From NCBI GenBank assembly GCA_031763025.1, contig JASSKH010000038.1, positions 1,219,001 through 1,283,000 on the forward strand: 64,000 nucleotides of DNA, read 5' to 3'. Source of the stretch: Macrocystis pyrifera (taxonomy: Eukaryota; Sar; Phaeophyceae; Laminariales; Laminariaceae). This document shows positions 20,417-54,109 of this stretch, piece after piece. The notes beneath the pieces are model-generated. The model saw only the letters and a program-made list of their open reading frames with translations, was not told where the DNA came from and searched no databases. Positions within the stretch are counted from its first letter, which is position 1; each line of letters begins with the position of its first letter. The translations under genes were made by a program, and so were the position numbers.

Positions 20417-22251
20417 ATGCCAGGAGCTCGCCTCGTCGGGTGTCACCAAGTGCCCCTGCCAGCGAACCAGAATCCCCGCCAGGCCTCTACCACTGCATCG
20501 ACGAAGACCTCCGCGGCGACGAACCTATCTGCGAAGAAATTGCCGGGCCAATCTGCGGACCAATCGGCGGACCAATCGGCGGAGCCTTCACGGTCGCCGT
20601 CGATGTCTCCGTCCGACGGTTTGCCGGTAGTCGGGAGTACGGTAGGTGCCGCGGCAGAACGGCGAGAAAAACTCGGAAAGGAACAAGAACACCATGGCGA
20701 GAACGAGGCGGGTCTAGCGTGGCTAGAGGGTCCGGCGGGTCTGCTGCGGGTGATGCTGATCGATAGGCGGCTACTGGCGCGAGGGCCTAACGCCCCATTC
20801 AGCAGCAGCAGCAGCAGCAGTGGCAACAGCAGCAGTGGCAACAGCAGCCGCGATAGCCGTAGAGGCTTCGGTGATGCCGACAGCAGAAACAGTGACAGAG
20901 CTACCGCCGCGGTAAGAGATGCGACTATCACTTCCCCCCGCTCAAACGGCATCATAGCGTCCGATTGTATCTCGCAGGACGGAAAAACAACACGGAAGTG
21001 CCAGCCGGGTCAAGAAACCAGCTCTTGTACGGAGGGAAGGGCGGGTGCGGCGGGTCCGGGGCTTATCGAGAGCGAAGGTGGGGGTGGGGTTGCAACCGCG
21101 GCCAGCTCTACGGCCTACTGTGGTGGGAGTAATGTTTCCTCGCGCGCTTCAAAACTACCCGGGGACGTCATGCCGCCGTCGCCGTCACCGCCACCGCCGC
21201 TGCTGCTTGCCGGGCTTGCTTCATGGGCAAGGTCAGCCCGACGAAGAAACACCTGCTCCTCCTCCGGCTCCTCTTCCTCCTCTTCCTTCTTCCCCGCTTT
21301 CACCAGCCCGCCCTCTTCCGCCGCCTCCTCTTGTCGCTCTTTCTACAGCGCCTCCTCTATGGACCAAGAGGCTATGCAGCTTCGCTCGGGAGATGCCGAG
21401 AGGTCGAAGGGACACCTGCCTCAGGCGAACGGCGGCGGTGGAGCGAGCTTGGCGCAGCACACCGGTTACAGCGACGGTGGCGGCGGAAGCCGTCGTGGTA
21501 GCGCCGGCGGTAGCGTAACTGGAGGCGGCGCGATAGCAGAGCGCCCTGACGGTTTTATGTGCGGTGAATTTTCCGAAAATGAACTCACTGGGGAAAGCGG
21601 TGCGATAGAGCGCCGCGATGGTTTTACTTGCGGTGGGTTTTCCGAAGAGAAAATTTGGCGGGAGGGCGACCAGGGAGGCTCGGTGCCCGACGTGAGCTCG
21701 GTGGAGCGCGAAAGCCCACGGGGGGGGAGGGGCGCTGCAGAAGCTGCTGAGAAAATAACCTCACCATGGCCAACAGCAGGAGCTACAGCGGAAGCAGTAG
21801 CGGTGGCAGTCGTAGCAGCGGCGACAGAGACAGTAGCAGCATCAGCATCAGCAGAAACTACCGCAACAGAGGACTTAGAATTAGTGGCAGCAGCAGAATC
21901 GACGGCAGTATCAGCAGAAGCGACAGCCGCGGCACAACCACTACCACCACCAGCAGTAGCAGGTACCGCACATTCTGCGGTAGCGAGCACGCCGGAAACT
22001 CTACCGTCGGTACCAGGAGCGGCGACCTACCGCGCGGCGTTAACGGGCTCGGCCGAAGGTCAGAGTGGGTCCGAAACCGCTGGATGGGAGCGACGGGGGG
22101 GCGGGAGGGCCACGGAGGATGGCTTTGCTGACGAGGGCGGGCAGTGGGGGCGGAAGCTGGCGACGGGGGGGAAGCGGGAGAGACCGTGTCGAGAATTGGA
22201 GCTGTTCCAGCTGGGTAACCTCGGCGGACCGCTGAAGATTGTGCCGAACAG
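20417..22251 (+). other. Exon 1: low-complexity N-terminal region
   Basis: About 611 codons rich in Ser, Gly, Ala and Glu, with no folded domain visible. Tracts include polyserine (20,801-20,850) and an Ala/Thr/Val/Glu-rich stretch (21,760-21,990). An internal imperfect repeat is also present (GAIAERPDGFMCGEFSENE, then GAIERRDGFTCGGFSEEK). The last codons read GGPLKIVPN and stop at AG before a GTTCGG donor (22,252). The split codon AG|T continues into SSPIPINNRYFEG of exon 2, the usual start of DUF1769. Other frames are open here because of composition; the splice fit selects this one. Confidence 0.6.

Positions 22252-54109: not shown

Follow-up and report, generated by a model that had tools for sequence, protein, structure and literature searches.

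The window (the whole 64,000-nt stretch analysed here) carries on its + strand what is very probably one protein-coding gene, with at least 23 exons over ~34 kb, whose single transcript, we infer, would encode one protein uniting a Duc1 domain (Pfam PF08588; Duc1 is Pfam's present name for the former DUF1769) with a DUF547 domain (PF04784). The preferred chain has 23 exons and totals 5,085 nt with its stop codon, corresponding to 1,694 aa. Its required frame is open in every exon (23/23), and 13 of the 23 are open in one frame only; 23 open frames would have a probability of ~7e-8 under random phases, a value that overstates the evidence because exon boundaries were picked with the frame in view. 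Splice sites are ranked by the number of sites scoring higher, among 1,777 AG and 2,579 GT sites, and codon scores are referred to 461 open 30-codon intron pieces (median -0.42, 95th percentile 0.00, maximum 0.78).

20417..22251 (+), exon 1, or the first seen: low-complexity N-terminus, 611 codons open in one frame, codon score -0.02; its last residues, KIVPN, are the start of the Duc1 match
23895..23994 (+), exon 2: Duc1 domain (PINNRYFEGSALLMVKRDPMAPRYAHMFE), Pfam PF08588
24705..24821 (+), exon 3: Duc1 domain (GKNRMFEIQVQGRFKRPPEGDLYISL); 16/28 residues common to a second locus on contig C190
26824..26952 (+), exon 4: Duc1 domain; match to C190 at E 3.2e-7 (80 kb searched)
28537..28659 (+), exon 5: polar/basic insert inside the Duc1 match, net charge +2 over 41 aa
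29917..29996 (+), exon 6: Duc1 domain (TYSFSFHSMYLDMPNW)
30498..30657 (+), exon 7: the Duc1 match stops here (MDLHTFWGGSALRIAAYV)
31931..32180 (+), exon 8: acidic linker (net charge -17 over 83 aa) in an open frame that has a codon score of +0.27 bits
34257..35073 (+), exon 9: low-complexity linker, donor CAG/GTGAGT, codon score +0.02, net charge -22 over 272 aa
35074..39730 (+), intron 9: 4.66 kb, the longest intron of the model and the disputed gap between the halves
39731..39824 (+), exon 10: LSRREVKRRTLDSVLKQLTTPSREQINRSHQ; codon score +0.26, GC3 0.81
40383..40451 (+), exon 11: ends at the preferred donor; the 4,950-nt chain requires 40453
40613..40653 (+), exon 12: 41 nt (DRRYRNPEYFITL), new relative to the original prediction; phase fits, codon score negative, acceptor outscored by 59/1,777 and donor by 31/2,579
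43426..43543 (+), exon 13: within the region predicted to be PH-like; codon score +0.42, no family match
44345..44441 (+), exon 14: same region; donor uncertain
44876..45012 (+), exon 15: same region (MYLVEVHTVGRVHYMLVEGLGQARSWAAAIQ); open frame, codon score -0.15
46380..46577 (+), exon 16: leads into DUF547; acceptor outscored by 1/1,777
48356..48426 (+), exon 17: immediately 5' of the Pfam DUF547 match
49656..49772 (+), exon 18: DUF547 (FLNLYHVMLLHAF), family-invariant N and Y retained
50791..50899 (+), exon 19: DUF547 (LSYEVGGEVFSMADLEHCVLR), 17/31 residues common to C190
51282..51406 (+), exon 20: DUF547 (RVSFALNCGSTSGVPG), one invariant Cys kept, the invariant His and second Cys gone
53273..53336 (+), exon 21: the Pfam DUF547 match terminates here
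53972..54105 (+), exon 22: DUF547 alignment continues (SWYSDDF); GTAAGG donor
54592..54738 (+), exon 23: C-terminal part (EKREQVDRLLSDGGQVTV), then a frame change

Gene model and its ends

The original prediction, a chain of 21 exons and 4,950 nt from 20417 to 54109, could be rebuilt to the exact nucleotide, with a single terminal stop (...VKRFLAG, stop at 54109) and with the AG/G CTG junction between exons 9 and 10 seen on re-splicing. That total is obtained with exon 11 ending at 40453 and the 41-nt exon at 40613-40653 skipped; the chain is indeed open, but the short exon had been overlooked. The predicted start, ATG 20417, is present but sits inside a strong, pyrimidine-rich acceptor-like site at 20424 (outscored by 31/1,777 AG sites), so exon 1 may be internal. 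At the 3' end, the TAA at 54107-54109 exists but overlaps the CGG/GTAAGG donor of exon 22 (outscored by 41/2,579 GT sites), and a 23rd exon follows at 54592.

Exon 23 opens with the kind of sequence expected shortly before a DUF547 domain ends. The frame then apparently shifts by one base, after which FDTWNW (...FDTWNWKCRPV...), resembling the C-terminal YDW motif of the family, is read in the other frame; the stops lie at 54689-54691 in the unshifted frame and at 54736-54738 in the shifted one. The C-terminal W is present in 34/34 prokaryotic DUF547 proteins aligned, and a family-like W motif in the other frame points to a one-base difference, either an assembly error or a mutation. Exon 19 ends against a 31-G run without a GT donor, which together with the frame change in exon 23 makes assembly error or decay possible. 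Elsewhere in the model, the exon 14 donor is weak (1,483/2,579 GT sites score higher), and codon scores are at or below zero for exons 1, 12, 14 and 15.

Domain composition

Both outer domains of the original prediction were recovered by profile search of the joined protein. PF08588 matches the joined piece from the end of exon 1 to exon 8 at E 1.5e-40 (140.1 bits, cut-off 25) over profile positions 16-229 of 246, and PF04784 matches joined exons 10-23 at E 1.9e-29 (102.6 bits, cut-off 27) over positions 2-125 of 125. The third family anticipated for the protein, PF00169, was not found. The PH-like module proposed between the two domains is without profile support in Pfam: the central region matched no Pfam family at E 10, either in three cuts or within a longer joined piece, and no NCBIfam family at E 1, and among PDB sequences it retrieved three unrelated chains (E 0.28 to 1.7), with no PH chain among them. 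The resemblance of the central region (exons 13-15) to PH was noticed by eye alone, and this segment between the linker and DUF547 is possibly PH-like. DUF1769 had also been described as an orphan family; it is now Duc1 in Pfam, with a role given by a 2024 fission-yeast study (PMC11449445).

A diverged second locus in the same genome

In the genome (537.4 Mb, 223 contigs), a search for the Duc1 family listed six places, four of them over the cut-off (on C202 or in the window) and two below it, the first again on C202, the second on C190 (20.8 bits, interrupted by one TGA). Near the C190 place, and on its strand, a DUF547 exon was located. Each half was then taken separately through the whole genome in protein searches that scored best candidates only (9 and 16) and were run after C190 had first been noticed as a sub-cut-off Duc1 match; both gave C190 as the top place outside the window: C190:10779779-10779877 (-) for the Duc1 half (E 0.0097) and C190:10750429-10750521 (-) for the DUF547 half (E 9.6e-4). 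The next-best places outside the window among the candidates scored were on C207 (E 1.07) and C192 (E 0.37). A fusion would have been in doubt had the two domains never stood together in relatives; within this same genome they do so on C190, 29 kb apart, on the same strand and in the same order as in the window. We calculate a probability of about 3e-5 that, in a 537-Mb genome, two such places would by chance lie within 30 kb of each other on the correct side and strand.

The single E-values on C190 are modest, but Pfam run on the surrounding stretch exceeds the cut-off for both domains (Duc1 34.7 and 26.3 bits, cut-off 25; DUF547 36.3 bits, cut-off 27). A DUF547 profile that included the window sequence picked out four pieces on C190, arranged as in the domain: two are strong (E 4.8e-7 and 3.3e-4) and two weak (0.27 and 1.1). 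With a prokaryote-only profile, the first piece reached 4.2e-5 and the second 0.29, while neither C202 nor 20 kb of sequence upstream of the window gave a match at E 1. The C190 stretches between Duc1 and DUF547 (L115, L116) hold no domain over its cut-off, and for exons 10-16 we saw no convincing counterpart on C190. The duplication that separates the window from C190 appears old, because the compared pieces are only 9/28, 16/28, 17/31 and 15/45 identical. We take the C190 pair to be one gene as well, and it could instead be two neighbouring genes. A further, better-scoring Duc1 locus on C202 at 11526050-11530107 (+) (L109) has no DUF547 match in ~45 kb downstream, indicating that the fusion is not general for Duc1 in this genome.

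One gene or two

That Duc1 and DUF547 belong to one polypeptide, as originally proposed, is supported by the exon 9 donor, the content of intron 9 and the linkage on C190. The donor CAG/GTGAGT of exon 9 is outscored by 0/2,579 GT sites in a leave-one-out comparison, with the profile trained on the other donors. Translation of exon 10 shows no in-frame ATG; the open stretch 5' of its acceptor is intron-like (codon score -0.51, GC3 0.45), and the acceptor itself is outscored by 430/1,777 AG sites. Searched on both strands, intron 9 (35074-39730) yielded no Pfam domain at E <= 1. In an exon scan its top internal score was 14.2, versus 1.5 to 25.9 in 19 other introns, and the internal exons of the model scored 9.0 to 65.2 in the same scan, a comparison that favours them because the scoring was not leave-one-out and these exons helped to train it. 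Its best initial candidate (6.4) falls within the range of the other introns, and its terminal-exon candidate (10.5) also lies within the intron range but is the third-highest among the introns scanned. Intron 9 thus offers no convincing exon candidate before exon 10 and none beyond the intron range.

The competing explanation is a pair of adjacent same-strand genes, of which the Duc1 gene would stop at exon 9 or beyond it and the DUF547 gene would start before exon 10; co-regulation or joint duplication would then explain why the two are still neighbours in both old copies. Read-through past exon 9 meets a TGA at 35075-35077, which formally allows a terminal exon there; an immediate TGA is expected for any phase-2 GTGAGT donor after AG. 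Two genes would also accord with the 4.66-kb length of the gap, the longest of the model, with its third-ranked terminal-exon candidate, with the Duc1 locus on C202 that lacks a nearby DUF547, and with DUF547 loci on C196 and C221 that are without Duc1 among the places listed genome-wide. These points have to be set against the placement of the region's top donor at exon 9, the ordinary scores of the top initial-exon and internal-exon candidates within the gap, and an adjacency retained in two copies whose compared pieces have diverged to 32-57% identity. We therefore consider one gene likely and a pair of genes unlikely.

State of the DUF547 domain

DUF547 loci were found in many bacteria and archaea. 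Conservation was assessed in 34 aligned prokaryotic proteins from 80 loci, a set of our own rather than a published criterion; the loci were chosen by two peptide patterns that contain several invariant residues, the His included and the second Cys not, so part of the invariance is built in. Eighteen columns are invariant in 34/34 of these proteins, of which the window copy keeps 11 (N44, Y46, E88, R93, R123, A127, L128, C130, P137, D184 and F185) and differs at 7: His 125 (S here), the second Cys (V here), one position each of F, N, G and A, and the C-terminal W, which exon 23 supplies only in its other frame. All 7 relatives found by similarity to the window, with no pattern used, likewise have the His and the second Cys. 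On C190 the Cys position reads LNNGSQSNPP, with the first Cys missing as well, and the usual motif is retained at C196 (HFALNCASISCPPLR) and C221 (HACIVCASVSCPD). Invariant residues are thus lost in both Duc1-linked copies and kept in two other loci, four loci being a small sample. Land-plant DUF547 proteins may also deviate at this motif. Judged from sequence, family membership stands by the profile, and catalytic equivalence does not follow from it.

In 7/8 plasmid records, DUF547 genes have redoxin/peroxiredoxin, FAD-dependent oxidoreductase or radical SAM genes as neighbours, a hint of thiol-redox work in prokaryotic DUF547; the predicted fold of one prokaryotic member gave no PDB match at E <= 0.001. 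The fused domain might still be an enzyme, acting through the remaining invariant Cys (C130) and the kept Glu-His (LEHC), and both the redox neighbours of its relatives and the retention of N44, Y46, E88, R93, R123, C130, P137, D184 and F185 would suit such a role. It is difficult to reconcile with a His replaced by S and a lost second Cys, both of which are present in all 34 prokaryotic proteins and all 7 pattern-free relatives, or with the C190 copy, from which the remaining Cys has gone too; we judge retained catalysis very unlikely. Hardly more probable is that the chain is real and the copy broken, a decaying pseudogene. Decay would explain the 31-G run in place of the exon 19 donor, the frame change in exon 23 and the lost DUF547 residues, but the required frame is open in 23/23 exons and the Duc1 match extends over profile positions 16-229 at E 1.5e-40. 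G-runs and single-base changes are, moreover, typical assembly errors.

Proposed function and comparison with known systems

Our main reading, to which we assign a probability of roughly 0.6, is that the locus is one gene whose product is a phosphoinositide scaffold at the cell cortex, its DUF547 being probably non-catalytic. The sequence shows which domains are present, a frame that stays open, a matching linkage at a second, diverged locus and changes at invariant columns; membrane binding and the scaffold role are inferred. In the way proposed for Duc1 of fission yeast, the Duc1 domain would bind the cortex, which is rich in phosphoinositides, and homology to the yeast protein leads us to expect the scaffold on the inner side of the plasma membrane. 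The acidic linker (exons 8-9) would keep the membrane domain at a distance from the DUF547 module, and DUF547, in view of its lost invariant residues, is most plausibly a binding module rather than a catalytic one. More tentatively, and with the odds somewhat against it, the window and C190 may represent a lineage-specific Duc1-DUF547 fusion family with at least two diverged copies, in which DUF547 would serve as a non-catalytic partner-binding module beside a phosphoinositide-reading Duc1.

As described in the study of Schizosaccharomyces pombe, Duc1 resides at ER-plasma-membrane contacts, binds ER VAP proteins via an FFAT-like motif outside the domain, and localizes robustly to the plasma membrane in dependence on PI(4,5)P2; its authors propose direct PI(4,5)P2 binding and leave the binding part open (PMC11449445). 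The protein predicted here shares with it a polar/basic insert inside the domain, encoded in our gene by exon 5; in the yeast protein the domain is reported to be split. It differs in its C-terminal DUF547, since the yeast protein is presented as a split DUF1769 plus an FFAT-like motif, with no DUF547 mentioned in the parts of that account drawn on here (PMC11449445). It differs also in the FFAT-like motif: strict and Duc1-like patterns found none in the joined protein, and one loose match lies in exon 5, inside the Duc1 domain, so the VAP link of yeast Duc1 is not carried over. In the same source DUF1769 is stated to occur 'only in fungal proteins' (PMC11449445), contrary to which Duc1 occurs here in a genome that appears alga-like and not fungal.

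Prokaryotic DUF547 proteins resemble the C-terminal half (35% identity over 172 aa with a Chloroflexi member, L084) but are short and without Duc1, and their HFALNCG..SCP motif has lost its His and second Cys in the window copy. A weak likeness comes from Entamoeba histolytica PTEN1, a phosphoinositide phosphatase with another membrane module: in a figure legend the label DUF547 stands beside a PI(4,5)P2-binding motif and a C2 domain, an uncertain label given that the text of the same paper says DUF457 (PMC9122207). Among the matches listed in a full-text literature search, DUF1769 and DUF547 were never named in the same paper; the combination is new as far as the literature searched, and it may already sit unannotated in eukaryotic protein databases. 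If our reading is right, fusion to the membrane-cortex domain Duc1 gives a functional hint for DUF547; a lineage-specific fusion family of the kind outlined above would tie eukaryotic DUF547 to plasma-membrane phosphoinositide or ER-PM contact biology.

Repeats, homopolymers and neighbouring features

A ~107-nt MITE-like repeat with near-palindromic ends (ACGGGGGTCC ... GGNCCCCCGT) occurs in ten copies on both strands, several of them in introns of the gene; the copies are 82-91% identical to the first (37504-37610), and translated traces were also detected in L090 and on contig C202.

37504-37610, 2756-2860, 8002-8102, 13141-13244 and 14850-14957 (both strands represented among the ten): MITE-like copies 1-5
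26041-26131, 27516-27620, 32793-32882, 44608-44714 and 47444-47548: MITE-like copies 6-10
23281-23480, 33333-33529, 31654-31852, 48631-48778, 25593-25700 and 46925-47075: six copies of a ~200-nt repeat
29691-29875: homopolymer, 184 C and one A in 185 nt
48499-48577, 26470-26511 and 50899-50929: further homopolymers of 79 C, 42 C and 31 G, respectively
~59349-59501 (-): WD-repeat-like exon (HKRAITALSLTKAHLFSASDEGHLRIWNL)
27047-27127 (-): sequence resembling a tRNA, inside intron 4
~51205-51241 and 51273-51309: partial tandem duplication at exon 20

Several copies of the ~200-nt repeat run into C-rich tracts, as if it were SINE-like with a C-rich rather than an A-rich tail. The very long homopolymers, some next to exons, are either unusual features of the locus or assembly artefacts. 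The WD-repeat-like exon matches a Pfam beta-propeller at E 0.05, below the cut-off, and is a possible convergent neighbour gene. The tRNA-like sequence scores 34.6 bits against an Rfam gathering score of 29 and is not reported by ARAGORN; it is perhaps a tRNA-derived repeat. The start of exon 20 and its acceptor are partly duplicated in tandem (TTCCTGTCCAAGCTGATCATC / TTTCTGTCGAAGCTGATCATT).
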